Of a DNA stretch of 64,000 nt, positions 4,250 to 63,589 are shown one piece after another. Below the pieces are notes generated by a model that was not told the origin of the DNA, searched no databases, and saw only the letters and a program-made list of their open reading frames with translations. Source of the stretch: Plumapathes pennacea (taxonomy: Eukaryota > Cnidaria > Anthozoa > Antipatharia > Myriopathidae); NCBI GenBank assembly GCA_964036295.1, contig OZ038467.1, forward strand, positions 21,456,170 to 21,520,169, read 5' to 3'. Both the position numbers and the translations under genes were made by a program. Within the stretch, counting starts at the first letter, position 1, and each line of letters opens with the position of its first letter.

Positions 4250-13776
<9,527 letters not shown>

Positions 13777-13951
13777 GTAAGACATACACTTAGTTGAATT
13801 GTAACACGAGAGCGAATGCAAAGTCTCACAAAGTTGACACATTCCAAATTTACATCAATCTGAACTGTGAGCGACTAGTAGACTGTTTCAAGTAATCTCT
13901 TTTTCTTTCCAATTTTCCCCCGCAGTTTCGGGAGTGAAACTCGAACGCCTG

Positions 13952-39820: not shown

Positions 39821-40561
39821 ATTTAGTAGGCACATTTGAAAACCTCTGGCCTCGGACATCACTTTGCCGAAAGGCCTGGGTTTGGAAGCAATTTCATCAA
39901 GTCAACTGCTACCTCTACCAGCAAAATCTCATTATTTTATCTCTAATATATGCTCTAAGATTCAAAGGAAGGTTATATGCACCCCTTCAATGTAGGTGCA
40001 ACCCACTGTTATTCAGTGAGTTGTCTTGAATGATATCATTAATGATATTCTGCCTAAAAAGTTATGAGGATGCCATGAATAATTTTTTGTGCTAGTAATG
40101 CTTGCCTAGCAATACAGTCTAGCACTGTAACACAGCAAAAGTGTACAAAACACCCCCACCCCCTCCGCACTAATTCGGGGCATTTCTTATTTTATTAAAG
40201 TATTCTAATCACTGATATTTTTCAAAGGAACAGACTTTATTGTAACATCCAGAGGAAGCAATACTGGAAGCCAAGGCTTCAAAGCTTTCTTGTCTTGTGT
40301 GTGGTTTATATCTAGAACTTCAGCTAAACTTGCTAAAGTGTTGACCAATGTTGTGACATAGAAAACCAAACAGAAGCAGCATGTGCACAGTGTACCAAGT
40401 TTGAGCACAGTCTAGTCTGTTCTATAGAGAACTGTTTTGTATCCAAGACAAACTGTTCCGTTGGATGGACATCCTCTAGTGTTCAGATACATCAATTTTT
40501 ATAGCCCTCCATTATTGATTGGTTTTACTCAATGCTTCTGTACTTTTTTTTCTTTACTCAG
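39821..40561. other. No gene seen
   Basis: AT-rich sequence. Its end (tacttttttttctttactcag) is the acceptor for the first recognisable PNPLA exon. No cyclic-nucleotide-binding-domain exons, expected upstream in PNPLA6/7, were recognised between the NLR and this point. Confidence 0.45.
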
Positions 40562-40734
40562 GAATTCAGATTTTTCTTGCTTGGCTCGGCGTTTGACAAG
40601 AACCTCCATAGGACTGGTGGGGAGGCGGAGGACCGAGGTGAGGTTCACAGAAAAAGAAGAAATATCTGCTAATCAACAACAAAAAGGCTGCTATCAGAAT
40701 GTACTCATTTAGAGCTTTCGTTTTAGTGGTCACA

Positions 40735-43700
40735 CTTGATAGTGGAGCGGATATGTGCATGGATTGTTCACTTTCGGTTAAAAGCATCAAATTTGGCAGA
40801 AAGACAGGTTTTAGTGTGCCTATCAACTATGGATACAGTGCCACCGCAAAAAATAATGGGTTTCCGAGTTAAGGCGTATTTTCAAAATGGCCGCCATATT
40901 GGACCGGAAGTAAAAGTACATAGACCGAACCGTACATTTGAACTATCTTTTTTATTATTTGAATCACTTTCAATCAAAGATAGGAACAATAAAACGTGCA
41001 AGTATCATGTTTCGAAGAAAAACTTTGGGTTGACAATATAAAAAATGCTTTTAAAATGGCAATCTATACAGACCGGAAGTGAAAATTATTTTTAGCGGAA
41101 GTGGTCAAAGTAAATGCTTTTCTTTGTGAGCTTACCGTGTTTGTCTGTTTTATTATCACAGCCATGATAGAATATTTACCAATACATATTCTAGTTACAA
41201 TATTGGCTCATCATCTTAACCCTTTCACTCCCAAGTTCAAAATGCAGATTCTCCCAACTTTTAAAATGTATGAGTCATGTAGTAATAGTTCAATCAGCTA
41301 TCACCTGGGCAAGGCATCAGAAGCCAAGTTCTCCTTACTATAGTATTCGGCTTTCAATAATCGTAGAATGTTTCGTTTCGTCTATAACAAGTATGCAATA
41401 CAGTTTGAAGATTAAGTTGACCCTTTCACTCCCGAAAGTGATCAACTTCGATTTTCTACTTCAGTTTCTCACCAGAAATATGGTAAGGGCATAATATTCC
41501 ACGGATTTGACTATACAAGAGACAAGGTAGTTCTCAGGCTGAAAATGCGTCGAAGTAAATCATCTTAACGTAGTACATTTCTGTTGCCGCACTCATCAGT
41601 GCAGGTCCACGGAGCAGTCAGTGTAAGTGAGCCTTCACGTAGGAACAGCTTGCTCGACATCCTTTCTTACAGCCGCATCAAACGATTTTGCGGAGTTTTA
41701 CATCACTGGCACGCGGCTCTTTTATATACAAAACAATTTCCGCAAGCACATTACCCTCAGAACGTTGAATTTCCTCATCCTCGTCTATGACTGTCCTTGT
41801 CTTCTTTTACAACAAGGCTAGACAAGTGGCGCGGTATCCTTCGCTAATGAGCTGATCAATTCGAAACTCCAACAATGTTACGGTCAAATTCCTTATTATC
41901 GGGTTAAAAGGAATTGTTTCGGAACGATCGATTTTAGCCATGTTTATGAGCTTTCAGTGACATTTACTTTTTACCTCGTTTGATTTCTACATTGTCCTTT
42001 CTGGTTGTGAAAATCCATTACATCCGCACAGAACGTGGAGTGTTTTACACGGACTTGCCGTTTTGGAACGATCGTTGGACTAATTTCGCCATTTACGAGC
42101 GAATTGCCGAAGTCACGTTTTCAGTCACGCTTCTTGTTTGATTCTACCACTGCCCACCGCGCGGGCTCGGATATGACGTGTGTTCACGCGAGGTTGACGC
42201 GTGTGTTTTTTACTTGTAGAGTTGAATTGCTGATTGTTATGTTGTAAAGTTTACACTTTGTTTCACCTCGGAAATACATCTTGTAAATCCTCAAACTGTG
42301 TTATTACGACCGTTCCATCGTTTGGGAACAGGAATACTAAAATGCCCGTCTTCAAGGCTGAATTCAATGGTCGGGGCAAAACATCGCGGAGAAAGGGATA
42401 ATAAAATAGCCTGAAACTTTGACTTTTGAGTCAACTAAATTTTGTGAAACGAGCGTACGAGATATTGTTTCTTTGAGCTAGTTATCCGATGGTTTGAAAT
42501 ATTCCTTTTAAGTATTAAATACGAGTGATTTGCGAAGATCTATAAACTATAAACGTACTGGGCAAAGAGGAATAAACTCTCGACAAGGAGATATTTTCTT
42601 ATCGATTCATCACGGTATGTCGGTAATAAACGTCGGAGTTAAAGTCGCCAGGGCAATGTGCATTTGTTTTTTTACCACAACACACGAGTTTCTCGCTCTC
42701 TGATTGGTCGATTTACCGTGGTAAATAAGAGTCCAGACAACGATGCTGACGCCAGCATGTCACGTTTTGCAGCGAAATACAACGAAAGTTTCCTGTATAT
42801 TTCTAAATGTTGTGGTAAAATTAATAAATTTCCACTGGTTTTCCGTGGTGTGGACTCTTATTTACCACGATTTACGTCATCACATGGTCAAAATGTTGTG
42901 GACTCACAAAGAAGCGCCTCGTGAGTCCACAACATTTTGACCATGTGATGACGTAAATCGTGGTAAATAAGAGTCCACACCACGGCAAACCAGTGGAAAT
43001 TTATTAATATTTATCCAGTTATAAAACCAGTACCTTGATCGAGGTAACGCATTCAAAATCTTTACGCACTCAAAATCTTTTCTGTTTTTATAGAACGGTG
43101 CAACACCTGGAGATCGATCTTCCATGTACAGTTGCAACGAATAAACTTGTGCTTGCAGATTTCTTTCAACACACACACCAAGCGCACAGCTATTAACTGG
43201 TTTTGCGTAAAGTGGAGTGAAATTAAGGGAACCAGTCTAGACCCGCCACTGAATTCAAAATTCCCACTCTCTGTCGAAGAGGTGAAATCGACTCCACCCC
43301 ATGGACAGAGCCGTCTGTCAAAGTCCCGTCTCCCAGACAAACGAGAGTGTCAAATCCCCCTTTCGAAGTGTCGAATTGACCGACGCAAAAGCTTAGCTAA
43401 AAACCTATCATCCTGTAATGCAAATACGCCGTATATTTCGGGTACAAAATTAATCACATACAAAGCATGCAGCGGCACTTTCTGCGGATGCGGTAGAATT
43501 CGATCGCATGTTGTACTTGTCTTCGACTACCTGCTCGGGTTTCAGTGCACTGCGTCTTTTTTCTGCTTTGTTCAGGCCTCGTATAATTAAATACATAATA
43601 GAAACTTCTATGCCAGCTAGATTTGCACCGTGAAAAATGTATCTTCTCTCTCACCACTTTGCCCGTTCTTGAAAGACTTTGTCTCTTTTGGCATGCAAAT

Positions 43701-44372
43701 GTAAAGACCATTGAACTTTACTATATTCCCAGCCAAGGTTTTGTGGCCTGCTCCTATATCCGACTGGCGCTCAGATTTAGCGGAGCACTGTGCAACACAT
43801 TTAGACCACTCAGAAAGCTTTAAGATTCTATTTTCGGCTCCGCAGACTAAGGACTTCTGGGTACTAACAACTTTTATATTCTGCGTATGTCCTTTACTTT
43901 TCGACAAAATAAAAAAAATCATTTTCCAAATGTCAGGAATTTTATACATTTAAAGCAAACTTTAAAAATAGTTGAATAGGAGACATGATTTCAAACTCTT
44001 TGCCGTATTTCCGACTAAAGTAACATTCACTTCCGGTTTAATGTAGATGACACAAAACCAACCAAAATATGCATTGTCTAGGGCTATCCGACATATATTT
44101 TTTAACTTTCAGGCTCATTATATAATAAGAAATAAGCCTGAACATGTAAATTACATTTAAAGTCTAAATTTCATCAATGTCTATTCGACTTCCGGTCAAG
44201 ATGGCGGCCATTTTAGAAACCTCAAATGGATTTAACAGAAAGTTTCGCGGTGGCACTGTATCAGATATTTATTAATATGACAAAATGTATATTTCCTGCA
44301 AGTTTGGTGCTTTTAACCGAAAGTGAACAATTCGGCCTAAATTCTGTACATATCCGCTCCACTATGACAGCT
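40735..44372. mobile_element. Foldback element with ~300-bp terminal inverted repeats
   Basis: Left arm 40,735-41,100 and right arm 44,000-44,372 are inverted relatives: agtggagcggatatgt, gttcactttcggttaaaagc, acagtgccaccgc, aaaatggccgccat and gaccggaagt all recur in order. The interior has a CCCTTTCACTCCCAA MITE (41,217-41,340, with a second fragment at 41,417-41,480), MITE copy B and unrecognised open frames. It fills the intron between the first two PNPLA exons and sits inside a unit of the 89-bp satellite. Confidence 0.75.
42668..43011. repeat. MITE copy B, inverse of copy A
   Basis: Carries the same palindrome (ggtgtggactcttatttacc with its inverse near 42,960-42,985) and the unique arm ending in tttaccacaacacacgag. 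Orientation is opposite to the 10.6-kb copy. It is nested inside the 40.7-44.4 kb foldback element. Confidence 0.85.
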
Positions 44373-44374
44373 TA

Positions 44375-46255
44375 GGAGTTCAAAGTGAACACACTGTTAT
44401 TAGAATATACTTATTCAACTGAAGTTGAAGTGAATACTGCTCTTAGAACTGTGTGCTCATTGAGAGCTTTTATTTCAGTAGTTACACTTTAAATTTCATT
44501 TGACAGTTAAGACGTTGAAAGTGAATACTACTACTAGAATGTACTCATTATAAAGAGCTTTCATTTGAGTGGTCACACCTTTAGGTTTCATTCGACAGTT
44601 CAGGAGTTAGAAGTGAACACTGCTATTAGAATGTACTCATTGAGAGCTTTCATTTGAATGGTCGCACCTTTAGGTTTCATTCGACAGTTCAGGAGTTGGA
44701 ATTGAACACTGCTATTAGAATGTACTCATTGAGAGTTTTCATTTGAGTGGTCACACCTTCAGGTTTCATTCGACAGTTCAGGAGTTGGAATTGAACACTG
44801 CTATTATAATGTACTCATTGAGAACTTTCATTTGAATGGTAACACCTTCAGGTTTCATTCGACAGTTCAGGAGTTGGAATTGAACACTGCTATTAGAATG
44901 TACTCATTGAGAGTTTTCATTTGAGTGGTCACACCTTCAGGTTTCATTCGACAGTTCAGGAGTTGGAATTGAACACTGCTATTAGAATGTACTCATTGAG
45001 AGCTTTCATTTGAATGGTAACACCTTCAGGTTTCATTCGACAGTTCAGGAGTTGGAAGTGAACACTGCTATTAGAATGTACTCATTGAGAACTTTCATTT
45101 GAATGGTAACACCTTTAGGTTTCATTCGACAGTTCAGGAGTTGGAATTGAACACTGCTATTAGAATGTACTCATTGAGAGTTTTCATTTGAGTGGTCACA
45201 CCTTTAGGTTTCATTCGACAGTTCAGGAGTTGGAAGTGAACACTGCTATTAGAATGTACGAGAGCTTTCATTTGAATGGTCACACCTTTAGGTTTCATTT
45301 GACAGTTCAGGAGTTGGAATTGAACACTGCTATTAGAATGTACTCATTGAGAGCTTTCATTTGAATGGTCACACCTTTAGGTTTCATTTGACAGTTCAGG
45401 AGTTGGAATTGAACACTGCTATTAGAATGTACTCATTAAGAGCTTTCATTTGAGTGGTAACACCTTTAGGTTTCATTTGACAGTTCAGGAGTTGGAATTG
45501 AACACTGCTATTAGAATGTACTCATTGAGAACTTTCATTTGAGTGGTAACACCTTTAGGTTTCATTCGACAGTTCAGGAGTTGGAAGTGAACACTGCTAT
45601 TAGAATTTACTCATTGAGAACTTTCATTTGAATGGTAACACCTTTAGGTTTCATTCGACAGTTTAGGAGTTGGAATTGAACACTGCTATTAGAATGTACT
45701 CATTGAGAGCTTTCATTTGAATGGTAACACCTTTAGGTTTCATTTGACAGTTCAGGAGTTGGAATTGAACACTGCTATTAGAATGTACTCATTGAGAACT
45801 TTCATTTGAGTGGTAACACCTTTAGGTTTCATTCGACAGTTCAGGAGTTGGAAGTGAACACTGCTATTAGAATTTACTCATTGAGAACTTTCATTTGAAT
45901 GGTAACACCTTTAGGTTTCATTCGACAGTTTAGGAGTTGGAATTGAACACTGCTATTAGAATGTACTCATTGAGAGCTTTCATTTGAATGGTAACACCTT
46001 TAGGTTTCATTCGACAGTTCAGGAGTTGGAATTGAACACTGCTATTAGAATGTACTCATTGAGAGCTTTCATTTGATTGGTACCACCTTTAGGTTTCATT
46101 TGACAGTTCAGGAGTTGGAATTGAATACTGTTATTAGAATGTACTTCTTGGGAGCTTTCATTTTGAGTGGTAACACCTTTAGGTTTCATTTGACAGTTCA
46201 GGAGTTGGAATTGAACACTGAATTACAATGTACTTCTTGGGAGCTTTCATTTTGA
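44375..46255. repeat. 89-bp minisatellite, about 21 copies
   Basis: The unit contains gaacactgctattagaatg, tactcattgagagctttcat, ttgaatggtaacaccttt and ggtttcattcgacagttcag. Spacing between ggagttgga motifs is 89 bases. Outer units are more diverged than inner ones. It lies in a PNPLA intron and stops about 35 bases before exon 46290. Confidence 0.95.
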
Positions 46256-46454
46256 GTGGTTACTCACACGTTGTCGTCGTTATACGCAGGGGTCTCTCCC
46301 ATGTCGGGATAATCAAAGCTCTTGAGGAAGGAGGTAAGTTTACTTCTGCAGTAAAGTGCTATAAGAAAACTTAAACGTACACGAGGCACCGATAATGATA
46401 AAGATTTGAAATTCAACATATAGGCCATTTTCCTTGTGGGTATAATCAAAAGCG

Positions 46455-46615
46455 ATTCACAGTTAGCATGTGAGATTGAACCACCGATAATATTGATGTG
46501 TAAGTAATCATGTTGGTGATTATAATGAAGTCGGACTTTATAGGCCCCATGTTACCATCACTCGTTTGATTGCAGACCAACTCAGACTCCACACAAGTCT
46601 TATACCATTCTTCAG
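46455..46615. repeat. Diverged copy of the 491-649 MITE
   Basis: Retains gtaatcatg, gtgattataatgaagtcgg, cactcgtttgattgcagacc and cagactccac in the same order as the first copy, with the hairpin weakened. Confidence 0.55.
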
Positions 46616-47749
46616 ATGGTTTTGTTTTAGCAAACATCGAGTTTTCACCTTGCGGGACCTTGCCGAAAGCATTAGATAAACGTAAAAATCTCGTTAGCGT
46701 CTTGTACGACATTTTAAAACCAGCTTATCGGTCTTCTACCTTTATTGATCCGGCGCTTGCCATCATACGTTGCAGGCATTCCTATCGACATGGTGGGTGG
46801 GACCAGCATGGGCTTCTTCATTGGAGCAGCGTTGGCCGTAACTGGTGACGTCACGAGGACGTGCGAGATAGTGCGCGATTGGTCCTGGGTAAGAAAGCTA
46901 GTCACAATAAAGTGACTTTAAAAACCTTCCGCTGTCACTGCTCCAAAGTTGTCTGTTAGAACTGACTGTACTGGGACGTGTAAAGACTGTCACTGTCACT
47001 TTGATTGCCCCTGCATTTGTAGAACTTGTGTGAACAGTTCTCAGCACTGAACAGCAGTCCTCGTTTTGATGTTCTCCAAAGCTCAAGCACTCAGGAGTGC
47101 GGTCTCTTTATCCACAGGATATGAAGTCAATACTCAAGGTCGACCTGACTAACCCCTTTACTTCCATTTTTTCTGTTGAAACTCGGTTCTCGAAGTTGTT
47201 ACGCAGTTTCGTGTTTTTTTCTTTTCTGACCAAGTGTCAACTTGTTCCCGTGCAGGAAGTGGCTTCAAGGGAAGCATTCGGAGCTCTTTCGGAGAAAGAC
47301 AGATTGAGGTATTCTTGTTTTCTGCCTAAATTTGTGTGCAGTCATCAGACATGGGGGACGGTTAAGCCAAGAGACAATGTCGTAAAGGACTGTGTTGGCC
47401 AATACACTTATCCCTGTCTCGTCTGTCCAATCCATTCAAACCACTTGTCCACCCGCTCATACACTACCCCCACCCTCCCCCCCCCCCCCCATCCCACCCG
47501 CCCAACACAACTGCAACTGCAACTTTCAATCTCTCTCACAGGACTTACTTCTGCCTTACATCTTTATCCACTACGGACATCGCATCTTCCAGAATGAGAA
47601 TTCACATGGACGGTAAGCGGAGAGAAGTGTGACTTATAGGTAGTCAAATGATAGAAAGTTTGTTTTTGACGCTGCAGCGGTTTTTACATTAATTTGTTTG
47701 TTTTACGTCCATGAGTGTTCGGTGTGGTAACATCTAAGACCAGACTTGA

Positions 47750-48130
47750 GTTTCTGGTGTTGTTTTTTATGTTCTCAGCCTTCTTGTTAAATTTCTGTCG
47801 TTGTTTTGTGTTTCCTCGGATTCTTGTTGAGTTTCCGTCGTTGTTTTGTGTTCTCAGCTTTCCTGTTGAGTTTCTATTGTTGCATTCTGTCCCCATTTTC
47901 CCTGTTAAGTTTTTATCGTTGCATTCTGTCCTCAGTTTTCCTGTTGAGTTTTTATCTTTGCATTCTGTCCTCAGTTTCCCTGTTGAGTTTTTATCGTTGC
48001 ATTGTGTCCTCAGTTTCCCTGTTGAGTTTTTATCGTTGCATTCTGTCCTCAGTTTCCCTGTTGAGTTTTTGTCGTTGCATTCTGTCCTCAGTTTCCCTGT
48101 TAAGGTTTTATCGCTGCATTCTGTCTTTAG
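47750..48130 (+). repeat. 39-bp minisatellite made of a splice-acceptor region
   Basis: About nine copies of a 39-base unit containing tttccctgttgagtttttat and cgttgcattctgtcctcag. The last copy (cattctgtctttag) is the acceptor of PNPLA exon 48131. Because 39 is divisible by three, the array gives a repetitive open frame that is not a protein. Confidence 0.9.
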
Positions 48131-48895
48131 GGGCTATCTTCCTCCATTATGTAACCCAAAAGACGGACATCTACTTGATGGCGGCTACGTCAATAATCCG
48201 CCTGGTGAGTTGCGGCACGACTTTTGGGCGTCTGTTATGCTTCCCTATTTGTTGTTTGTTTGTTTGCTTGTTTATTTATTTGTTATTTTGTCCTCAGCTG
48301 ATGTTAGAAAGAACATGGGAGCGAAGACGATAATCGCAGTCGACGTGGGGTCAGAGAATTCCGGAAAAATGACAAACTACGGCGAGACTTGTCGGGATAG
48401 TGGCTGCTCTGGAACAAGTGGAATCCTTTTGCAGAGACAGTCAGGGTAAGATGTGGGCTCCCTCAGGTGCAGTGCTGGAATCAGGCCGCCTGCCTTGCGT
48501 GCAGAAGTATGTTTTACTAGCAATTAAACATATTAGAGCAAAAAACTTAAAGTTGACAGCCCATACACTCTTGCGGATCTCATTAGCCTTAAGTTGGCAC
48601 AGGTTATGTGTTTACTGAGTGTGATTTGTTTAGGTTCCGGGCATGGCTGAGTTTCCGTCTCGCGTGGCCTACGTGTCTTGCATTCAGCGTTGGAGGAAGT
48701 GAGAGAATGTACCTATTGCGAATACGTACGACCGCCAATCGAAAGGTGAGCTAACATCTGTACAGTTCAGTCTCACACATGGATCTCTTTTGCTGCTATT
48801 GAAAAATTCAGTCCAGTTACAGGTGTTGTTGTTGTTGTTGTTGTTGTTAGTGTTGTAGTTAGTATCATTATTATTATACTATTGGAAATTATTTA

Positions 48896-49540
48896 AGGCC
48901 GATTTTCACTAGTGAAGTAAGCGGAGATGGAGACGTAAGACACTTGCGTGCGTGTGAAAATTAGCGAACGGAGACGGAAGCGGAGAAGGAAGGAGATGCT
49001 ATTTTTGGCGTACGTTCGCGCGGTCAGTGGGCTGGGGACGTGTTTTTATTGGCCTCAACATCTTTGTAAACATGGAGGACGACTATGATAAACTACTCCT
49101 GTTTCTTTTCCTGTTCTTCAAGCGGCGGAGGAGACGAGAACTGGCTTGTCAGAGACAACCAAAGAGATTTTGGGTCAGGGAGATGTTTCTGAAGAGGAAA
49201 ACCCATGGGCAGTTTGAAAACCTGATAAAAGAAATCAGTTTAAATGACATATTTATTTTTGTTTGGTGGCAAGACGCGTTGGGCATGGGAACTAGTAGTA
49301 TTTTAGCCTGGAGAGATGCCTTCTGATTGGTTGATTGGTTCCGTCTCCGCTTCCGTTCAATCGATTTTCACAGGAACGTAACCGAAGTAAGCGGAGACGG
49401 AGACGCAAGAAAAAGAAAACCTTCCGTTCTGCTTCCTTCTCCGCTTCCGTCTCCGTTCGCTAATTTTCACACGCGCGCAAGTGTCTTACGTCTCCGTCTC
49501 CTTCTCCGTCTCCGCTTACTTCACTAGTGAAAATCGGCCT
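48896..49540. mobile_element. PIF/Harbinger-type MITE with a transposase remnant
   Basis: Ends AGGCCGATTTTCACTAG and CTAGTGAAAATCGGCCT begin inverted repeats of about 90 bases, flanked by TTA on both sides. The 3-bp TWA duplication is typical of PIF/Harbinger. The interior at about 49,068-49,250 (+) encodes MEDDYDKLLLF then RQPKRFWVREMF and HGQFENLIKEISLND. This resembles the N-terminal start of Harbinger transposases. The DDE catalytic part is missing, so the element is an internally deleted, non-autonomous derivative. It lies in a PNPLA intron. Confidence 0.8.
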
Positions 49541-49754
49541 TTAATGAGCTGTCATCGTCCGGGTGAGAGAAGACTGTTGTTGGTGACTGATCTTTTGTTG
49601 TTGTTGTGGTTGACTGTTTGTTTCATTTTTCAGGATTCAAGACGCTAGACTTTGGGAAGTTCGAAGAAATAATGGTAAGTGGTTCAAAGAAATACCTGTA
49701 TCAACCCTTTCACTAAGTGGCAACGCAAATAATTTCCAAGTCGAATTGAACCTT

Positions 49755-52073
49755 AAGGTGTGGCTGCTCAAATGAATGTTCTATTGGAGTACATTGTAAT
49801 AACAGTGTTCATGCTCAAATGAATGTTCTATACGAGTACATTGTAATAACAGTGTTCATGCTCAAATGAATGTTCTATTGGAGTACATTGTAATAACAGT
49901 GTTCATGCTCAAATGAATGTTCTATACGAGTACATTGTAATAACAGTGTTCATGCTCAAATGAATGTTCTATTGGAGTACATTGTAATAACAGTGTTCAT
50001 GCTCAAATGAATGTTCTATACGAGTACATTGTAATAACAGTGTTCATGCTCAAATGAATGTTCTATTGGAGTACATTGTAATAACAGTGTTCATGCTCAA
50101 ATGAATGTTCTATACGAGTACATTGTAATAACAGTGTTCATGCTCAAATGAATGTTCTATACGAGTACATTGTAATAACAGTGTTCATGCTCAAATGAAT
50201 GTTCTATACGAGTACATTGTAATAACAGTGTTCATGCTCAAATGAATGTTCTATACGAGTACATTGTAATAACAGTGTTCATGCTCAAATGAATGTTCTA
50301 TACGAGTACATTGTAATAACAGTGTTCATGCTCAAATGAATGTTCTATACGAGTACATTGTAATAACAGTGTTCATGCTCAAATGAATGTTCTATACGAG
50401 TACATTGTAATAACAGTGTTCATGCTCAAATGAATGTTCTATACGAGTACATTGTAATAACAGTGTTCATGCTCAAATGAATGTTCTATACGAGTACATT
50501 GTAATAACAGTGTTCATGCTCAAATGAATGTTCTATACGAGTACATTGTAATAACAGTGTTCATGCTCAAATGAATGTTCTATACGAGTACATTGTAATA
50601 ACAGTGTTCATGCTCAAATGAATGTTCTATACGAGTACATTGTAATAACAGTGTTCATGCTCAAATGAATGTTCTATACGAGTACATTGTAATAACAGTG
50701 TTCATGCTCAAATGAATGTTCTATACGAGTACATTGTAATAACAGTGTTCATGCTCAAATGAATGTTCTATTGGAGTACATTGTAATAACAGTGTTCATG
50801 CTCAAATGAATGTTCTATACGAGTACATTGTAATAACAGTGTTCATGCTCAAATGAATGTTCTATACGAGTACATTGTAATAACAGTGTTCATGCTCAAA
50901 TGAATGTTCTATACGAGTACATTGTAATAAAAGTGTTCATGCTCAAATGAATGTTCTATACGAGTACATTGTAATAACAGTGTTCATGCTCAAATGAATG
51001 TTCTATTGGAGTACATTGTAATAACAGTGTTCATGCTCAAATGAATGTTCTATACGAGTACATTGTAATAACAGTGTTCATGCTCAAATGAATGTTCTAT
51101 ACGAGTACATTGTAATAACAGTGTTCATGCTCAAATGAATGTTCTATACGAGTACATTGTAATAACAGTGTTCATGCTCAAATGAATGTTCTATACGAGT
51201 ACATTGTAATAACAGTGTTCATGCTCAAATGAATGTTCTATACGAGTACATTGTAATAACAGTGTTCATGCTCAAATGAATGTTCTATACGAGTACATTG
51301 TAATAACAGTGTTCATGCTCAAATGAATGTTCTATTGGAGTACATTGTAATAACAGTGTTCATGCTCAAATGAATGTTCTATACGAGTACATTGTAATAA
51401 CAGTGTTCATGCTCAAATGAATGTTCTATACGAGTACATTGTAATAACAGTGTTCATGCTCAAATGAATGTTCTATACGAGTACATTGTAATAACAGTGT
51501 TCATGCTCAAATGAATGTTCTATACGAGTACATTGTAATAACAGTGTTCATGCTCAAATGAATGTTCTATACGAGTACATTGTAATAACAGTGTTCATGC
51601 TCAAATGAATGTTCTATACGAGTACATTGTAATAACAGTGTTCATGCTCAAATGAATGTTCTATACGAGTACATTGTAATAACAGTGTTCATGCTCAAAT
51701 GAATGTTCTATTGGAGTACATTGTAATAACAGTGTTCATGCTCAAATGAATGTTCTATACGAGTACATTGTAATAACAGTGTTCATGCTCAAATGAATGT
51801 TCTATACGAGTACATTGTAATAACAGTGTTCATGCTCAAATGAATGTTCTATACGAGTACATTGTAATAACAGTGTTCATGCTCAAATGAATGTTCTATT
51901 GGAGTACATTGTAATAACAGTGTTCATGCTCAAATGAATGTTCTATACGAGTACATTGTAATAACAGTGTTCATGCTCAAATGAATGTTCTATTGGAGTA
52001 CATTGTAATAACAGTGTTCATGCTCAAATGAATGTTCTATTGGAGTACATTGTAATAACAGTGTTCATGCTCG
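49755..52073. repeat. 47-bp minisatellite, about 49 copies
   Basis: The unit is tgctcaaatgaatgttctat, then acgag or tggag, then tacattgtaataacagtgttca. It is extremely homogeneous. Almost the only variation is TACG against TTGG at one site. It lies in the PNPLA intron between exons 49634-49674 and 52208-52293. Confidence 0.97.
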
Positions 52074-52345
52074 TGATCAGAGTTTATTTTGTGCATCTTT
52101 TACTCGTTACTTTAGGTACAGGCAGTCTTTTCAGTGAAAGGATTTTAATAAAGCTTCCTGATTTTTGAACAGTTTTCTCTTCATTAACTAAGCGTTTTCG
52201 CTTTAAGATGTCGGCCATCACCACGCAAAGATCGTGTTCAAGAGTTGGACCCAGGGCGACCAACCTCCAGAGGTTTAAAAGACAGCATCAGCCGTAAGGT
52301 GCGAGAAATGTCCCTTGCTACTGCATCTGTGTCTGTAACTGAATA

Positions 52346-53366
52346 GAGACCTTAAGCAACAGGACGGGAGAGAGGACGGTGACGTCTCCGGAAGTAAAAT
52401 TCACGCTCAGACAATCATTCCGCATGCCCGAACATGATAGCTCCCCCGTCCTGTCCCGTCACCGACGTCAAAACAAGTAGTCTCACGTCGTGGTGACAAC
52501 GTCGTATTTTTTCGTTTATTTTAGGCCAGAAAGATTGTGTTTACGAGCTGAAACCTAAACAAGGAGCACTCAACATCTTCTAGAGCCGAGTGAAAGGTAC
52601 TTCAGCCTTTTATTACGGAGTATATCGGGATTTACGAGCATCGCTTTACCGCAATTGTTTGAGTGATTTTGCAGTTCGTACCAGATTTATCGGCGGCCAG
52701 GAAAAGCAGATTATTCGTCCTGAATTTTTTCCTTATAATCGAGTATCGGAAAACATGTGTTGTTTGCTTACGAGTCCTTCGGTCAATAAATCGTTTGTTT
52801 GCTGCATGCGTATGTTTTGATGTATTCGTCTGAATTCTGATCTTCACAACACATTTAGCTGTCAATGGAGACTTTTGCCCGCTGAATGTGTTCTTAATTC
52901 CTTGAGCTCTGTCATCGTCGCACATGCAAGTTTTACAATTACGGCAGGAAGAAATTGAAAGAGTTAGTCATTCCAGCTTGTACTAAGACTGTAAACATGT
53001 CACGAAAAGCTTTCTGACGGCACTTTTAATGTTTATCCTCGATGAACTAACGATTAAATACTGTTAGGCAGGTTTCTTTCGAACGAAACTGCACTCGACA
53101 GAAGCGGCTTTTAGAAACGTTTTACTTTGGACAAAACCAGCAAATTCATGGGGACCAATGTTCTACAGTCATAAGCCTTGATCATATAAATCGATAGTAT
53201 TTTACAATGGGACAATAAAACTAATCAGCTTATCCGGCGTTCTCTTCAGTCGTCGTGCTACTGCTTAAGTACTTGGAACATGCATGACACGACCGCGTTC
53301 TCTGCCCAATCCTCTCGCGGATCTGCCGTCGCCGTCGCGCTGTCCCGTCCTGTTGCTTAAGGTCTC
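52346..53366. mobile_element. 1.0-kb TIR DNA element
   Basis: Ends GAGACCTTAAGCAACAGGAC and the exact inverse at 53,344-53,366, flanked by TA on each side. No transposase was seen, so it is non-autonomous. The TA target fits the Tc1/mariner class among others. It lies in a PNPLA intron. Confidence 0.8.
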
Positions 53367-53878
53367 TAATGTCTTGTCACGACGTCGGGACACAAGGATG
53401 CGCACTTGAACTTTTCAGGGATTACGTTTTTTTTACGATTGGCGGCCGTACGCTGTTTAGATTTACTTTGCAACTGATTGTTCTCTTTATCATCGTTGTT
53501 GTCGAAGCAGCAAAGTCAACTGGGCTTCACAGACTTGTCCGAGGAGACTTCGCGGATTGACCAACCCATCCTGAGCTCTCACTTTAACTGGGGCTCGAGT
53601 TCTTACGTGGACGGACTTTTCAGCGGCGGCGCGGCCGAGTCACGTCACATGTTCCTACTGTCTGAAGACGAGGATGAGGACAGACCAATCCGCTACAGGC
53701 CGCGCACCGGCTCGCTCTCAGAACACGAGGACCTGTTGGCACTCAAGGCCCAGGCCCGCGCGATCCAACAGATGGAGGAGAGGAATACGCCTCTGAGTGG
53801 GGACAAGGCCGGATATGACATAAGTGCTGCCGTCTTCACTCCGGTTTTCTCATATATGTTGTCACTTATGAGAATCAA

Positions 53879-54189
53879 GGGTGCATTCTTTTGGAACTTT
53901 TGCGTCTATTTCTATTCCGAAATGGAATAGCAGAATCCACAGAATATAGCAGTTCCCAAAAGAACAGACTTTGCACTATTCCGAAAACAGAATAGTTGAC
54001 GAGAAAAAAATTCTGTCTATTCCTAATAAACCGGCGCTGTTCCGTTTAGTCCGTCAATTCTGATATCCGGAGCAGAATGACGGAATACTATTCCCGTTCA
54101 TTCGTAAATCAGAATAGGTCCCAAAAGAACACGATTACCGTTTATTCCGGAATAGTAATAGACGGAATAGTCCCTATAGAGCGCACCCC
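53879..54189. mobile_element. MITE rich in GGAATA/TATTCC inverted motifs
   Basis: Ends gggtgcattcttttggaac and gtccctatagagcgcacccc pair imperfectly. The interior carries many inverted tattccg/cggaata motifs and two cccaaaagaaca blocks. It follows the end of the acidic PNPLA exon and obscures its donor. Confidence 0.65.
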
Positions 54190-54345
54190 AGGTGAACAGA
54201 TTGAAGAGAAAAGCGTTTTGATTGATGTCTTTTCTTATTTGGTTTTGCAGTGAGTCTGATGATACTCACTTGAGAAGACGAGTAGGACAGCTTATAAGAG
54301 GCACGTCAGAACCATAAGGCGGTCTTGTTCTTGTTCGTGTACGTG

Positions 54346-54740
54346 TATAAACTACTTTTGGCTTCGGAAGTATGCACGGATAATTGTCCGAGGATATTAT
54401 CTGTGCTTATTATATAGACACGAGTGTTTTAGTGGAAAATATACCGTGCGTAAAATCCATTCGAAACTACATCCGGGACCCGAGTGGCGTAATTTCCATA
54501 TCCTCACTAGTGAGGATATCGTTGGCATCATTTCCCGCTTTTGCACGGCTGGTTGTTTGTGCAAATTCTCGTAAAACACTCGTGTCTAATATAATAAAAA
54601 GAAAATTACACGGCGGCTTGAAGATATGGATTTTATTTTCTCGTGGTGAAAACAATATTTTACCACTCGAAAATAAAATTCATATCTTCGTGCGGCCGTG
54701 TAATATCCTCTATATATTTCCGAAGCCAAAAGTAGTTTAT
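54346..54740. mobile_element. Foldback element with nested palindromes
   Basis: Terminal ataaactacttttggcttcg is exactly mirrored by cgaagccaaaagtagtttat at 54,721-54,740. Inner hairpins pair cactagtgaggatat and gaagatatggattttatttt with their inverses. It starts about 30 bases after the PNPLA stop codon. Confidence 0.85.
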
Positions 54741-55877
54741 TGTCTTTATTATCCTTCAAATATTTCCTCTCGAAGCGCAAATAACGGCGCGGAAACTGTT
54801 TCTCTCTGTTGCTCTCTGGAACTGCTTTTTGACCAATAAATTGATGTCCTCCTCAGTAGTCATCTTGTAATGATTTTTGTGACTAAACAAATAGAACTGT
54901 GTTCGGATATTGTCAATAAACAGCGTTAGTTCGCCAGGCGGGGGTTATTCGCTGATAACGTCCGCTCACGAGCGGACGTTATTCGGTCACGTGTCACGAT
55001 TCTACCAATCACGCGCGGGAGGAAATATTTAATGGGTCATAAACGCCGGTCATAAAATATGGGTAGACACCATATTTTAACTACTATTGCTAAAACAAAC
55101 TTTTCTGTATTTTACGGGCCCCGCTTGCACTCACGCTCAGTCGCTGGGCGCCGAAACACCGACGGCTGGAGTCTGGGGCTAGCGATCGCAATAATAAAAT
55201 AATTATAATAAACTTTATTAAGGTCTCAAGGCTTCTAGCTTGGCACTAGTGCCTTGCTAATTGGGGAGACTATACAAAGTATCATTTGATCTGTCATCAT
55301 ATGTCATAACCATAATACCACTTCTGCTACAATCTTTCACCACGGATTAAGTGTCGTCATCACGAGTCGTAAACAAAGTAGTCTATCCGTGCATTGCATA
55401 TGTGATGTGTCGAGTGGACGGATGTTTGCCCCCGGAGTTCAGCTGCAGCTGGCACGTATGGGCAAACGCCAAATAGAACAAAGTTGTCCACCGAGGAAAT
55501 TTAGGACATAGTATTGAATAGGTATTGTTCGAATCGATCCAACAGCCCGTTGTCTCTTTTTCAAATCGAAGTCAAGTGCAAATAGTTATGAAACTTAGTT
55601 CGATCGCTGCCCAGTTTCCTGACGACTTAAAATCGTCCAGTGGATTGGTCACAGTGCTGGAAGATTGTCTGAAGCTCCCACCACGTGCCTTACGAATATT
55701 ACTAGCCTGCGATGCGGTTGAACAGTGTTCACGGGCGCCATTTTGTGCTGATGGCGGATGGGAGACTGAGGTCTAGTCTAGAAAAGAATATTACCCAATG
55801 CGCATTCAGTATTGCCTCGGCCCAGTTCTCCAATTTTTGCGCTGACCGCTGCAGACCGAAGGCTCAAGCAGAAGCAA
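54741..55877. other. PNPLA-CTR9 intergenic region
   Basis: Contains the perfect hairpin aacgtccgctcacgagcggacgtt (54,957-54,980), an AT-rich run near 55,190-55,215, and an 83-codon + frame (55,525-55,776) that I do not recognise. The last 150 bases (ccattttgtgctgatggcgg, 55,738) could be the CTR9 promoter. No further gene seen. Confidence 0.45.
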
Positions 55878-58800
55878 ATGGCGACGTCCATTGAAATTTC
55901 TCTTCGCGACAGAGAAGATGAGGCAAGGTACTGTCACGCTGACTTCCATCGCTTCGATTTTACGTTCAGCCGTTGCTTAATGATCTTCTTTCCGTTCAGG
56001 TAATCAAGTTGCAATTCGATCAGCTCCTGATCAATGGTGACGAAATGTTCAGCATCTTCAAGCAAGAACATGCTCAGCTGCACATTTGGAACACGCTATC
56101 CGTAAGTCTGTTTATATTTGGCAGACACTCTTCAGTTTTGCTCAGAATTTGTGTCGTACGAGCTGTTTTCTCGACTCTATCGAAGTGTTTACTTTGTTGT
56201 CGTGTCAATTTAAGACTGGATACGAGTTGTCTCGTGAATGGTTCCCTTATCTTTGTGTTCATAGCTTCAGTATTATAAGCAGGGAAAGGCGGAGGATTTT
56301 GTTAATACTGGAAGCCGCCAGATCAGGTAATCAGTTTTGGTACACACTTTTCTGTGTGGCGTACCAGTAAATGAAGATGTAATTTAATCATATTTGTTGT
56401 GTTCAAACTCTGATTTGTCATCCTTAAATTTACAGTGTAAATTGTGTACAGTGTTAATTTAGACTGTATGTTGTACAATGTGTTTTAAATCAATATTGAA
56501 CAAGTGATTTGTTTGAGTGAAGTTTGTTTTTTATTCTTTGTAGAACCATTTGCTTGGTAGAGCATACTTTTGTCTTCTGGAAGGGGACAAGATGGAACAA
56601 GCTGATGCCCAGTTTAACTTTGTGCTAGCTCAGGTAAAGAACCATGAAATATGCTTTTTGCGTTTAACTCCCAGTTTCAAAATTCTTCCAACTATTCAAA
56701 TACTCAAAAGAAATGGAATGCAATCCTGAAATAAAATAACAATAATATTTTGTTGCAGTTTCTTGTTCAAAATTGTAATGTTTTCCAATGTCATGTAGAA
56801 CAACAAAGGCAGGGGACTTCTACAGGGTGTATACACCATATTTCAAAATGTCCACCACGTGGATTAGCCTGAGTCGAGTTACATGGAAATGATGTTGTCA
56901 GGGCCACTGTTTAACTGTTGGAAATCTTAAACCAGTTATTTAGTCTGTATGCTTGTTTCAGAATGCCTTAGAGCTGCTCTGTTCTGCATTGTACAAATAC
57001 ACACATGTACAATAACACACCAAAAGAAAGTCACCCTCACCATGTAGCTTGACCCAGGTTTTATCCATGTGGTGGCCATTTTGGAATAAGTTGTATCCAT
57101 GTTAAAAAGAGGAACCAAACACCATATTGTGCTTTTTTTTCCCCATGGTCTGGAAACAACATTCCAGCATTACTGGCAGTAGGTTTGCTAACTTTGCTGC
57201 CATGCCACTTCATTGATTTCTGGGTGTACTTCACATTTTGTTTGTCTGTTTATCTTATCTAAACACAATGGCTCTTGTGTTTTATCAGGAAAGGCCTGTT
57301 TCTCCTTAAAGATATTACAATGGTTCTTTGGCTTACTACAAGAAGGCACTCAGGACAAACCCAAACTGTCCTGGTAAGGGAATTGGTTTCATATTTCATT
57401 ACATGCATTACAGTCTGTATAACAGTACATCGTGATCATTCCCAATAACTTGAACCATCTGCACCCTGTAACTATCTGTGTAAACTAATGTCAGTTGTGA
57501 TCAACAGCAGTCTTTCTAAAGACTACACTACTCTTACACAGACAAATCACACTTGTTGAACAACATGGATTTGGTAAGCTGTAATATTATAGTGTTGTAA
57601 TATTTTTGTATTCTTTCTTAGCCACAGTTTGCTTCTGAATGGGTCACTGCTTCAATAAACTTGGAACACCAGATAAAGCAAGGTAAATATTAAGGAAGGT
57701 TCCCTGTGAATTCATGATCTAAAGGAGTATGACAGCTGCTAATATGAAATTAATGTGTTAGCCAAAGTCAGAAAGACTACAAAACCAAACCTAACTTTTT
57801 TGATAATCTGCGAAGGAGCAGTACGAACTGTAACTGTGCAATAGCTATAACCCAAACTGTAAAGTCTTATTAATATTTGGTTCTTGTCCTCTTCTCTTGC
57901 AAATACCTATAGACTGGCTTTTAAAAGGACATTGCAGTTAGATCCTTTGTGTACTGGAGCTATGGTTGGGTTGGCGATTTTGGAACTGAACTCAAAGAAG
58001 GTGTGTCCCCACATCTATAAACCATATCACTATAGTATACACTTCACAGCCTTCAGTAAAAAAAGGCTGATTTTTATATTCTGATAATTCTTATTTTTTG
58101 TTTGTATTTTGATTAGAGCTGCTTTCAAGAACATATGCTGTGGACAATTCCAACCCAATGGTGCTCAACCACTTGTCAAACCACTTCTTTTTCAAGAAGG
58201 TGTAAGTTTGGTGATGTACATATACATGTAACAGCAATGTATCACTGGCCAGTTAGCATGTCCATTGTGTATTTCCAGTCTAATGAATATTTCAAACATG
58301 GAACCCCATCTTAATATTTCCCTTCTGCATATTTTTTATCTCAACATTCTTTTCATATCCTTTCTCTTTACTCTGCCACCCTCCACTCACACACATTGTT
58401 TTCTTTTTTTCTACTCTTTGAGCCAAAAATCTGAGATATGGTAATCTTTGAATGGAATGGCATATCCTCTGAGAACTACAGCACTGTAATTTTGTCTACA
58501 TTTTATGAAATGTTTCATGTCAAGTAACCATAATCTAATACGTGTGTGTTTGTTGTCTCTCTTTTCTTTGAAAGACTAAAACAAAATTCAGCATTTAGCT
58601 CTGCATGCTTTCCATGGCACTGGAGTTGAGGCAATGCAAGCGGAGAGTTGCTACCAGCTGTCCTGAGCTTTCCATGTGCAGGTCTGGCAATTTATGTTTG
58701 GTGCTGTAAAATGCTACTAATTGTATTTCATTAGGTGAAATGCAGACTTTTACTGCAGATCTAGACACTAGTAAATCAAAAGTGTTACCATGAATTTTAC

Positions 58801-59424
58801 TTTACTCAGATAAAACAATGTTCACATGTTATCCATTCTCTATGCGTTATGTGCATTTCATTTCATTGAAATGAAAGTGTGAAGTACTGTACATTTATAA
58901 TTTCATCCCAACAAGACTTTCCAGTGTCACATGCATGTTTTGTTTGTTTGTAGAACGATTCTGATCATGCCTTCCTGTATTATTACCAGTCTACACGGTT
59001 GCCTCAGCCAGCTTCATTCTGCCACACTTTGGCTTGGGGCAGATGTACATTGCCAGAGGAGACACAAATAAAGTGAGACAACACTACTGCACTGGTTACT
59101 TTTTTGCTAATCATTAGGTACTAGGATTTTTACATTTAAGTGTTGTAGCCTTTTTTACAGGCAATTCCTAAGAAATCCCCAACCTTTTATAAAAATGTCT
59201 TTCAGGCTAACTTTATTTCCCAAAGAGTCCTTTAACTCTCATTTAGTTTAATTATTTTGTTTATTACAATTTTTGTAGGCTGCCCAGTGTTTTGAGAAAG
59301 TTCTCAAAGCAATGCCAGGGAATTATGAGACTCTGAAGATTTTAGGATCTCTGTACAGCACATCACTGGACCTGGAGAAAAGGGAAACTGCCAAGGTTGG
59401 TTTAGATTGATAATTCGGGTCTCG

Positions 59425-59560
59425 ACATTTAACGGTTGCCTGTTATGCCCAGGGCAACCAAAAATTTTGGTCAGGCAGTTTAGGGCCGGGCAACCAGAAA
59501 TTATGAAACTTTCCATTGCTTGAAGCCAATCTACAATCCAAAGGGCAACCAACCTAAAAC
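59425..59560. repeat. Dispersed repeat (aacggttgcc...), copy 1
   Basis: Shares taacggttgcc, aaccaaaaattttggtca, gggcaaccagaaatta and caaccaacctaaaacc with 60,212-60,345. Both lie in one CTR9 intron. Confidence 0.75.
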
Positions 59561-59666
59561 CCTATGCCTTACAATGCCGAGCACTGTAATTTGGGGTAGG
59601 CTTATTCACTGTACATGTACAGTAACCTTGTCTGATCACAAAATGCAATTGCACTTGCTGCAGGTA

Positions 59667-59865
59667 GCCACTCCCAAGCTCAAAATACAAATTCTCTCAA
59701 CTAGAGGATAAGAAAATATATAAGTGATGAAAAGAGAATTTATGTTTTAATCAGCTGTCATTTGAGCAAAGTATCAAATGACAAATTCTCCATACTGTAT
59801 GATATATCTCTGGTGGAAGACTGAAGAGAGAAAATTGAAGTTGATCAGTCTGTACTGTACTAGAG
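59667..59865. repeat. CCCTTTCACTCCCAA-family MITE
   Basis: Contains cactcccaagctcaaaatac, aaattctctcaacta, the agagaattt and atcagctgtcatttgagcaa blocks, and gaagttgatcag. Same CTR9 intron. Confidence 0.7.
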
Positions 59866-60041
59866 TCATGAATAGCAAACAACTGCCTCAAATCTACCAT
59901 ACATACCTGTATTTCTAGGAGCATATTTAGGGTGAGTGTGTGTAATAGTTTAGTGTATATTGTCATACAGTGTGCTGCATTCCTAAGGAACAGAGCATGA
60001 CAAAACTATCAACCTTGTAACATTTTCAGTGCTCAACACTA

Positions 60042-60210
60042 AAGGCTGGTTCACACTGTAAAGCAAGCACAAGAGAATGAAAACTTTTCCATTCTCTTGC
60101 GTTTGCGTTTGCGTTTGCGCTTGCTTCACAAATTTTACCATGTGAACCGTCGCTTGCGCTTGCGTTTGCTTTTACGCTTGCGCTTGCTTTACTCGTGTGA
60201 ACCAGCCTTA
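60042..60210. mobile_element. MITE with AAGGCTGGTTCACAC ends
   Basis: Ends aaggctggttcacac and gtgtgaaccagcctta are inverted. The interior is made of gcgtttgcgtttgc and gcttgcgcttgc hexamer-like repeats. It adjoins the second copy of the dispersed repeat at its TTAACGG start, with a TA on both sides. Confidence 0.8.
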
Positions 60211-60211
60211 A

Positions 60212-60345
60212 CGGTTGCCCGCTATGCTTGGAACAACCAAAAATTTTGGTCAAGCAGGTAAAATCATGGTCGGGCAACCAGAAATTACAAAAGTTTCTAT
60301 TGCTTGAAGTCAATCTATAGTCCCAAGGACAACCAACCTAAAACC
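60212..60345. repeat. Dispersed repeat (aacggttgcc...), copy 2
   Basis: Diverged direct copy of 59,425-59,560, starting immediately after the 60,042-60,210 MITE. Confidence 0.75.
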
Positions 60346-62884
60346 TTAACATTGAGAAATGATTTTCTTCTTAAGAGGCTGTTGGAATGAAAAAACAGTT
60401 GTAGGGTTGTTAGAGTACTGTTAAAGTTTGCTCTCTGAACCCAGTAACAGTTCCTTTTTTCTCAATTCCTTTATAAACAGGCAGCACTTTCAGCCTATGG
60501 AACGGCTTCTAGACTTTTGAAGGAGAAGGTGCAGGCAGATGTCCCTCCCCCCGAGATCTTGAACAACGTTGGCGCCTTGCACTTCCGCCTCGCCAATCTG
60601 AAGGAAGCAAAAGTAAGTCATTCAATCCACTTGGTTTGTCAATACAATGATACTACTGTGGGAACTAAGTTGGGCCTGCGTCGGCAAAAATACGTTTGGT
60701 GAATAAACGTGAGGTTGTTGTGGGAAATCTGAAACGTTGTAGAAGCGAGTTTCACAGTGGCTGCCGTTAGGAGCGTTAGACCTTTGAATAGATATTTGAA
60801 TGGCGAATATTTAAAGCTGATTAAATGTTTTATTTCAATGTAGAGTATACTGTATCCTACGGCATCTTTGTAGTAATTCTACGAGGCTTCCCTGGTTCGC
60901 TCCAAACAGGAAGGTAGCATGGACGAAAGCTACTACAACGCGATCTCCGTAACAACAACGTACAACTTGTCCCGGCTGCACGAGGCAATGTGCGAGAATG
61001 ACAAGGGAGAAGCGCTGTACAAGAACATCCTCAGAGAACATCCAAACTATGTCGACTGTAAGTAGGGTTACTCCCCCATCAAGCCTGGGTTTTCACGAGC
61101 GTAACAAGCAGCAAGCAGGCACAGGCACAGGCAGAAGGTTCTTATTTCACAGTGAAAACACGCTTGATGCAAGCGCAAGTGCACGAGGATAAAAATATTT
61201 TGATCCCTGTACTCTTGAGATTTCGTTGCTCGTGTAACCAAACTTTACTATTCAACTCGATCTAACTTTTACTGGGGCGCGTTTTTCTTTTGCCCAACTT
61301 TTTTTTACGACTTGTGTTATAGAAAATGTATTGAACCTCTGCTATTAGCTTTGGGTTTATTGGCTGAGTTTTGAGGTTGTACAAGCGTTACACGAACTAC
61401 TTACACTTGAATTTCATCTTCTTCCTATTAGTAAGAAATAATAATTCTTGTTTCGTTTCCGGGCTACCTAAGACTTGGCTGCATGGCACGTGACCGAGGA
61501 CAGATCTACACAATGAAGCCTCTGATTGGTTTAAAGAGGCCCTGCAGATCAACCAGGTATAGTCGTCGACAGAATGTTCGTTGGTCTTTTCATCACGACC
61601 AACACCTGATGATATATGATGTGTATGTCATGATTTATGTATGATACGACATTATATATATGATCATCAGATTGTGTGCCTTCTTTAGAACCATCTCGAT
61701 GCCTGGTCCCTTATCGGTAATCTTCACTTGGCGAAACAAGAATGGGGGCCAGGCCAGAAAAAGTTTGAGAGGATCTTGAAACAGCCCTCCACCGCTAATG
61801 ACGCGTACTCTCTGCTGGCGCTTGGAAATGTCCTGTCTACAGACGCTGCACACGCCATCACGTGATAAGTCCAAGGAGAAACGTCATCAGGACCGAGTGC
61901 TTGCGCTTTACAAACAAGTGCTGAGGAACGACCCAAGGAATCTGTACGCAGCCAACGGCATCGGTGAGAACTCACTGTGCAAACAAAAGTTTAGACCTAG
62001 CCCACGGTTCGCCCAATGACTGGTTTTCACGAGCGACGTAAGCACAAGCGCAAGTGTTACCTCAAGCACGGGAGTTCTTCTTTCAAAACGAAAATAAGAC
62101 AGACGCAACCACACGAGCTTCCTTTTCCTTGCGCGTGTGTTTGAGATCACTCCTTTTTACGGAAACGTGCCTGTTGCACTTGCTTCGCTCGCTTTCACGG
62201 ATGCATATTTCTTGCGCTTAGCTTAACCGCGTTTGAACAACCGGCCCCAGAGAAAGACATGCGCAGATCTGACACAAATGTTGGCGCACGCAAGCGTTGA
62301 CACACTACAGTGTACCCCTTGTTGTGCACATGCGTGAGCGATGTTCTGTTGGGAGGTGTGCACGAAACTCTTCACTCTTAATAATATTGACTTTATTTGT
62401 ATATTTGTATATTTGTTTGTATATTTATTTATTTATTAAACCGCTTGTTTTTTCCAGGTTGTATTCTCGCGCACAAAAAGGTTTCCAGAGAGAGGCGCCA
62501 GACGTATTCTCCCAGGTGAGTCAGCATTTACAGTGACTAGTAGTTTGAAGTGAAAGTACCTCGAACAGCTTTACTTTAATTTAGGCTTCTGCATTCAGAA
62601 TAGTTGGACATGCTCACTGAACATGCATTACGTTTTACAGAGAATAAAACCTTTATTGTTTGTAGGTACGTGAAGCCACTGCGGAGGTCCCGAACGTGTG
62701 GTTGAACTTGGAACACATTTATGTTGAAGAGAAAGAATACGTGGTTGCTATTCAGATGGTAAGGTTTCTATTAATTATTTGTTTGTTTTCTTTGTTGTTG
62801 TTGCTGTTGTTGTTGTTTATTTGCATATTCTCGGTGATGCCGTGACATCATCTAAAGACAAATCACAAACACTCTAAACAAGTT

Positions 62885-62930
62885 CGTTGTCGTTGTTGTT
62901 GTTGTTGTTGTTGTTGTTGTTCTGCGATAT
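62885..62930. repeat. (GTT)n microsatellite
   Basis: About 13 units just upstream of the acceptor for CTR9 exon 62941. A shorter GTT run lies at 62,795-62,815. Confidence 0.9.
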
Positions 62931-63589
62931 TTCTTCACAGTACGAGAACTGCCTTCGCAAGTTCTTCAAGCACCACAACATGGAAGTGATGTTGTACTTA
63001 GCCAGAGCATATTTCAGAGCCGGCAAGTTGAAGGAATGCAAACAAGTCTTGCTCAAGGTTTGTACACACTTTTATGCCACCAAAACTCGGCACTGTGACT
63101 CGGATTGACTCGGCTCCATTCGGTCTTGCTCAGGTCTGTTCGACTTTATTCGGTTCTGTCTGACCTTTTCCCGGGCTTTTTCGAGCCGGTTTGGTTGTGT
63201 TCGGCTCCTGTTTTATCCCATGTTTGAGCACACGTCTCATTTTAATTTATTTCTTTGCCAGGCTCGTCATGTGGCGCCAAACGACACCATTCTGCTGTTC
63301 AACATATCTTCAGTGCAGCAGCGTCTGGCTACGGGTATTCTGAAAGCCGAGAAGAGTCAGTTAAAGGTCGTGTTGGGTGCTGTAAGGGAACTGGAGCAGG
63401 AACAGAGGTACAAATACTCCTCCATTGTGGACTCTAAGATAGACCCTTTGAACTATTAGACGGAGGAAGCGTTTTCAGCACATTCTAGTCAGGCTAACAT
63501 ACGTTGTTTTTTTCCAGGAACTTTAGCTAACTCAGTCGCCATGGAGACCGGGTGAAATTTGATTTGGCGCGGGCCGCGTCAGAAGCCAG

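Follow-up and report, generated by a model that had tools for sequence, protein, structure and literature searches.

A broken PNPLA6/7-CTR9 pair in Plumapathes pennacea as a dead, unprocessed duplicate that was later multiplied on its chromosome

In a 64,000-nucleotide stretch of the genome of the antipatharian Plumapathes pennacea (assembly GCA_964036295.1, contig OZ038467.1, hereafter C6, positions 21,456,170-21,520,169; 'the window'), the catalytic part of a PNPLA6/7 gene is followed by a CTR9 gene, and both are broken. Comparison with the whole assembly, 290 Mb in 24 contigs, leads us to assign a probability of about 95% to the reading that this pair is a dead, unprocessed duplicate of a PNPLA6/7-CTR9 block, which was multiplied on C6 at a later time. 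The essential gene CTR9 has an intact locus elsewhere in the genome, on contig C11. The original prediction, made from the sequence of the window, had favoured a decayed segmental duplicate, expected an intact CTR9 at another place and proposed a genome search for a second PNPLA6/7-CTR9 pair; that search recovered the pair on C11, collinear with the broken one and supporting the duplicate, and in addition a multi-copy family on C6. What was not foreseen is that the dead block exists in many copies, that it died before it multiplied, and that its neighbours, an NLR gene and an ASPM-like piece, have been copied here as well.

The intact pair occupies C11:15.963-15.990 Mb, where the PNPLA6/7 catalytic exons (15.963-15.967 Mb) adjoin CTR9 (15.979-15.991 Mb) with the strand and gene order seen in the window, introns included. 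No stops or frameshifts were found in the 25 aligned exons of the C11 CTR9 (human residues 5-862), nor in the 12 catalytic PNPLA exons used as reference, and exon numbers given here are those of the C11 genes. This CTR9 lies 0.41 Mb from the contig end. At the junction after its exon 1 the C11 gene and six C6 copies alike read GAGGCAAG, and exon 1 probably extends three bases more, ending at a GC donor. The window copy is 78-91% identical to C11 in the main aligned stretches, and its introns are present and homologous to those of C11, which bears out the expectation that these are not retrocopies.

The first comparison was a spliced alignment against human CTR9 and PNPLA6, in which both genes were broken; the final lesion calls come from a DNA alignment, exon by exon, against the C11 gene pair. 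Exon edges were also read letter by letter, for 21 CTR9 and 10 PNPLA exons of the window and, in the other copies, for the exon 7 acceptor of CTR9, because aligner gaps at exon borders had hidden splice changes, as at CTR9 exon 7. The gene parts described below, those of the NLR gene and the ASPM-like piece included, are on the + strand.

CTR9 is represented in the window by 21 of its 25 exons, in the parental order and with introns kept, and carries seven frameshifting indels, five stops, three lost acceptors and three missing internal exons. Three stops and about six frameshifts had been predicted, so that the breakage stands while the counts rise. Exons 1-3 (55887..56326) include a 2-bp deletion at 56305, in exon 3, and the site that follows (56327..56543) lacks exons 4 and 5, whose C11 counterparts measure 128 and 48 bp. 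Exons 6-14 (56544..59395) contain deletions of 5 bp (57308), 25 bp (58117) and 1 bp (58997), together with the stops TGA 57636, TAA 58577 and TGA 58664; the acceptor of exon 7 has become GG, with its donor shifted by two bases, and that of exon 12 has become AA. A site of repeat-like sequence (59396..60480) lacks exon 15, which spans 90 bp on C11. Exons 16-19 (60481..61963) bear TAA 60874, a GG acceptor before exon 18, a 5-bp insertion at 61508 and a 1-bp insertion at 61832, and exons 20-24 (62458..63589) a 2-bp insertion at 62475 and TAA 63528; exon 25 was not found up to the window end. A GG acceptor and two absent exon stretches had both been predicted, and correspond to exon 18 and to exons 4-5 and 15, with the acceptors of exons 7 and 12 to be added. 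A TAG at 56541, called as a stop by the first aligner, is the acceptor of exon 6 and was rejected.

The PNPLA copy shows five frameshifts, one stop, one lost donor and two damaged acceptors relative to C11, in line with the prediction of five or more frameshifts and one stop. Within the catalytic part, exon 1 (40560..40640, aligned to C11:15963148-15963227) has a 2-bp deletion near 40619, directly ahead of the glycine-rich loop. Exons 2-3, the region of the nucleophile motif (46290..46888), are free of lesions. In exons 4-6 (47118..47612) the exon 4 donor reads TT and exon 6 has a 1-bp insertion at 47568. At 47765..48204, a 39-bp minisatellite overruns the first third of exon 7 and precedes the rest of that exon. 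Exons 8-9 (48298..48745) have 1-bp deletions at 48386 and 48689 and a TGG-to-TAG change at 48398, while in exons 10-12 (49635..53636) the exon 10 acceptor is GG, with an AG one base upstream, the exon 11 acceptor is AA, and a 1-bp deletion at 52274 shifts the frame of exon 11. A TAA at 47728 in the first alignment was rejected as a stop, being a spurious alignment to minisatellite sequence. Searching with the whole human PNPLA6 protein (tblastn) gave no convincing match in the window for its N-terminal half, and so the window holds the catalytic part only.

Three minisatellites have grown within the introns of this gene: 21 copies of an 89-bp unit (44423-46260), 8 of the 39-bp unit (47825-48125) and 49 of a 47-bp unit (49765-52072), the last occupying most of intron 10-11. 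All three have short matching stretches in introns of the intact C11 gene, so that expansion probably followed the duplication. Other repeats are also present. A mobile-element-like stretch between exons 1 and 2 (40740-44366) has copies on C1, C3, C4, C6 and C10 at about 88-98% identity, and an intron repeat of about 650 bp (48892-49544), with matching inverted ends, occurs at dozens of listed genomic places at about 89-95% identity.

The window copy (W) is one of a family. DNA searches of the genome with the PNPLA and CTR9 sequence of the window scored the best candidates only, so that numbers of copies are lower bounds; at least six further blocks were found on C6, at 20.59 (A), 20.66 (B), 20.76 (C), 21.96 (D), 22.51 (E) and 23.16 Mb (F), all on one strand and spanning 20.59-23.17 Mb, that is, within the last 2.8 Mb of the contig. 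CTR9 sequence is present in all six at 93-99% identity, except for the 3' part of A (81%), and PNPLA sequence in five of them, E being the exception, at 85-96% in the main pieces and 78-81% in some short ones. If a segmental duplication is defined as 1 kb or more of sequence that two or more places share at 90% identity or higher, F (6.6 kb at 96%), C (3.6 kb at 96%) and others are of this kind. The blocks are truncated differently: homology of C, D and F stops near window position 61921 and that of B near 59219, and D starts near 60184. For C, D and F, blastn finds no 3' homology to C11, and their CTR9 matches past about residue 634 are spurious, as shown for F; calls of the first aligner in the later exons of B and the 5' half of D were likewise discarded. 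Two fragments, G (20.68 Mb) and H (21.44 Mb), are also found on C6, and further pieces of CTR9 lie at 0.15 Mb on C11 and at 18.16 of 18.22 Mb on C8. A match at C5:3.99 Mb was rejected as CTR9, since it consists of intron sequence only, with inverted ends, and was taken for a mobile element.

The core lesions are shared across this family. Counting those of W and A-F that retain the exon concerned, the 2-bp deletion in CTR9 exon 3, the GG acceptor of exon 7 (read in W, A, B, C, E and F), the exon 8 deletion, the exon 9 TGA and the exon 17 TAA are each present in six of six copies, the exon 11 and exon 13 deletions in five of five, and the GG acceptor of exon 18 in four of four. The same is true of PNPLA, where the exon 8 deletion, the exon 8 TAG and the exon 9 deletion occur in all six copies, the exon 4 donor TT in all five and the exon 6 insertion in all four. 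Because these lesions are at identical positions in every examined C6 copy with the exon, the block was already dead when it was multiplied.

The sharing also bears on whether the genes are broken at all. If the lesions were base-calling mistakes made in assembling or polishing a hard-to-map stretch, the genes would be intact; the lesions do lie in repeat-rich DNA, and G and H, which are 99.87% identical over 3.7 kb although 760 kb apart (L027 at C6:20.681 and L026 at C6:21.441 Mb), suggest that the region is hard to assemble. We give this idea almost no credence, since the same indels and stops recur at homologous positions in up to six of six separate copies, five nonsense changes and missing exons are unlike the indel-type errors of reads, and both the NLR gene next door and the C11 gene in the same assembly are clean. 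A related proposal, that the C6 blocks represent alleles of a single locus, wrongly set in series through failed purging of haplotypes, draws on the near-identity of G and H and on the difference of only 2.0-3.4% between the window and the other C6 copies outside exons; such a value is not far above the allele difference possible in a diploid, variable animal. Seven blocks nevertheless exceed two alleles, and they differ in truncations, lesions and neighbours, with A in addition a chimera that contains younger, C11-like DNA, all of which makes this explanation highly improbable. The original prediction had kept a haplotype or a poorly polished stretch as an option, which fails in the face of core lesions common to up to six C6 copies situated tens of kb to Mb apart.

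If the block died before multiplying, as we contend, its copies should have been changing without coding constraint. We considered private changes, those unique to one copy, at sites where at least four C6 copies align. Substitutions of this kind number 63 over 8,724 site-copies in exons (0.0072 per site) and 180 over 27,099 site-copies in introns and flanks (0.0066 per site). Among 61 classified private exon changes, 20 are synonymous, 38 missense and 3 stop, where neutrality predicts 22-29% synonymous, 68-73% missense and 3.6-4.8% stop. The private changes show no sign of coding constraint, and the copies have decayed neutrally since multiplication. Over the longer interval that separates the window from C11, exons differ by 5.9% and the remaining sequence by 12.4%, as would be expected with constraint persisting on C11 and with a C6 lineage that spent much, though not all, of the time dead. 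The same data speak to the notion that the array has been kept for a role at the RNA level, for instance as a source of small RNAs or transcripts acting on the C11 genes. Several copies have been retained and all the C6 blocks found have the same strand, as that notion would have it; yet the private changes lack constraint, identity to C11 is only 78-91% and the copies are truncated at differing places, and the chance that it is right seems to us very slight.

Several observations count against the reading as a dead duplicate that was multiplied later. Some window lesions occur in just two or three copies and one is confined to the window: TAA 58577 is seen in W, B and F, TGA 58664 in W and C, the insertions at 61508 and 61832 in W and A, and TAA 63528, of two copies with that exon, in W only. 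Pairwise comparison of the C6 copies gives a pooled ratio of nonsynonymous to synonymous change (dN/dS) of 0.48 for CTR9 and 0.47 for PNPLA, rather than 1, from pairs that are non-independent and include the chimeric A, with stops and low-similarity windows left out and transition bias ignored. We weight these values below the private changes because the pairs share history and include a chimera. Between the window and C11, CTR9 has a dN/dS of 0.18, so that part of this divergence arose under constraint, which is expected if the C11 gene kept its function and the C6 copy died some time later than the split. Finally, G and H represent either a very recent duplication or a false duplication, and their near-identity leaves room for some of the latter in the assembly.

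The history of the copies has not been simply one of branching. Copy A is a chimera whose 5' part is old (80-86% identical to C11) and whose 3' part is young (90-97%), and G and H are 91-98% identical to C11 over longer matches. In a tree of the first segment, G and H cluster with C11 and stand separate from the six C6 copies (100/100), and within the C6 group only C and F are united, with moderate support (94/88); in a tree of the second segment, only W and E are resolved (99/98). Together, the chimera and the grouping of G and H with C11 indicate that sequence probably passed between the ends of C11 and C6, by transfer or exchange, more than once. Lesion patterns that contradict one another, as those of 58577 and 58664 do, are compatible with exchange between the copies.

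We propose a sequence of events to account for these observations. First, a stretch with both genes and their introns was duplicated between the end regions of C11 and C6, as homology, gene order and introns show; the intactness of the C11 pair suggests that the direction was from C11 to C6. Second, the C6 copy lost its function through indels, stops, loss of splice sites, deletion of exons and growth of intron minisatellites. Third, the dead block was multiplied on C6, at a depth about one sixth to one quarter that of the C11-C6 split, judging from 2.0-3.4% against 12.4% divergence outside exons, and multiplication took the NLR gene along at several places, as the shared lesions and the recurring neighbour show. 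The copies have since continued to decay neutrally and to recombine, and one of them is a chimera whose 3' part is younger and C11-like. Broken genes would stand beside intact ones because C11 makes the pair redundant, whereas the NLR frame is kept: with the C11 pair doing their job, PNPLA and CTR9 would be passengers, and the NLR gene is probably held open by selection.

The NLR gene (30749..34435) comprises a Death-domain open reading frame at 30749-31090 and a NACHT-LRR exon at 32573-34435 that is one uninterrupted reading frame, as had been predicted. Matches listed for this exon place copies on C6 at 20.648, 20.727, 20.880 and 21.936 Mb, and each of the four stretches fetched has an open frame from residue 17 onward as far as it covers the exon, the 20.727-Mb copy covering residues 244-619 only. 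In two copies the frame steps at residue 16, within a T run ahead of the probable exon start, which we read as intron sequence. The order NLR-PNPLA-CTR9 is found at four of the seven C6 blocks, the window included, and the matches listed include none to NLR at A, E or F. Set against its nearest copy (L044), the window shows 50.7 amino-acid changing and 7.3 silent changes, and this one pair suggests diversifying selection; other pairs among the window and L044-L047 have dN/dS of 0.42-0.85.

The piece called ASPM in the original prediction (10933..13954) has a CH-type domain, the only domain found in it by Pfam. Eleven intact exons had been claimed; the three putative exon stretches that were examined are open in the window and in four of four fetched copies, one of them having a single in-frame residue gap and another being clipped where the fetched sequence stops. 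Copies are listed at at least 5 other places on C6 and 11 on C5, C8, C10 and C11, and every one of the 11 off C6 is within 340 kb of a contig end; they lie near an end of C5, both ends of C8, an end of C10 and both ends of C11. TTAGGG-type arrays are present at the end of C5 and the start of C8, while the starts of C10 and C6 read N; no telomere repeat was seen in the last 500 bases of C11, of C6 or of the right end of C8. The last 500 bases of C6 (L057) and C8 (L059) are identical at 351 of 365 aligned positions, a likeness compatible with exchange between these chromosome ends. Upstream of the ASPM-like piece, a 4-kb array (6309-10356) of 337 copies of the 12-bp unit CATCATCATCAC, with 99% matches, creates long false open frames.

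A more ambitious interpretation, tentative and in our judgement unlikely, is that the C6 end is an active exchange zone, in which the ASPM-like piece, NLR, dead PNPLA and dead CTR9 are repeatedly copied as one unit and remixed with the C11 end, with chimera A and the near-identical G and H as its traces, and in which the long dead block supplies homology for the multiplication and diversification of the NLR gene. Were this true, the excess of amino-acid changes in NLR (50.7 against 7.3) would be its selected result.

The kind of event is well known, namely unprocessed pseudogenes carried in duplications of chromosome ends. As in other duplicated pseudogenes, introns are kept, an intact parent exists elsewhere, there are indels, stops and splice losses, and change is neutral; the difference is that two unrelated genes died as a block and then reached at least seven copies on one chromosome. 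Human subtelomeric duplicons, in the account of Ambrosini et al. (2007, PMC2323237) so far as we draw on it, are blocks of variable mutual divergence common to chromosome ends. The present family resembles them in its variable divergence and in the occurrence of the ASPM-like piece at several contig ends, but PNPLA-CTR9 copies lie as far as 2.8 Mb inward on C6, and for them the term applies only loosely. Tandem duplication of immune-receptor families has been described in corals (Noel et al. 2023, PMC10236652), in whose main text the terms 'pseudogen' and 'subtelomer' do not occur; in contrast to the duplications reported there, as far as that term search goes, the co-duplicated neighbours here are dead. 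A search of open-licence papers found no account of this locus among the titles and abstracts listed.

A redundant duplicate explains why an essential gene looks broken, and annotation should record a pseudogene at this locus rather than the loss of CTR9 or PNPLA6/7. Since death preceded multiplication, the copies provide a neutral clock, and selection on the adjoining NLR gene can be measured against dead DNA. The value of the multi-copy dead block is as a standard of neutral change next to an NLR gene that is multiplying.

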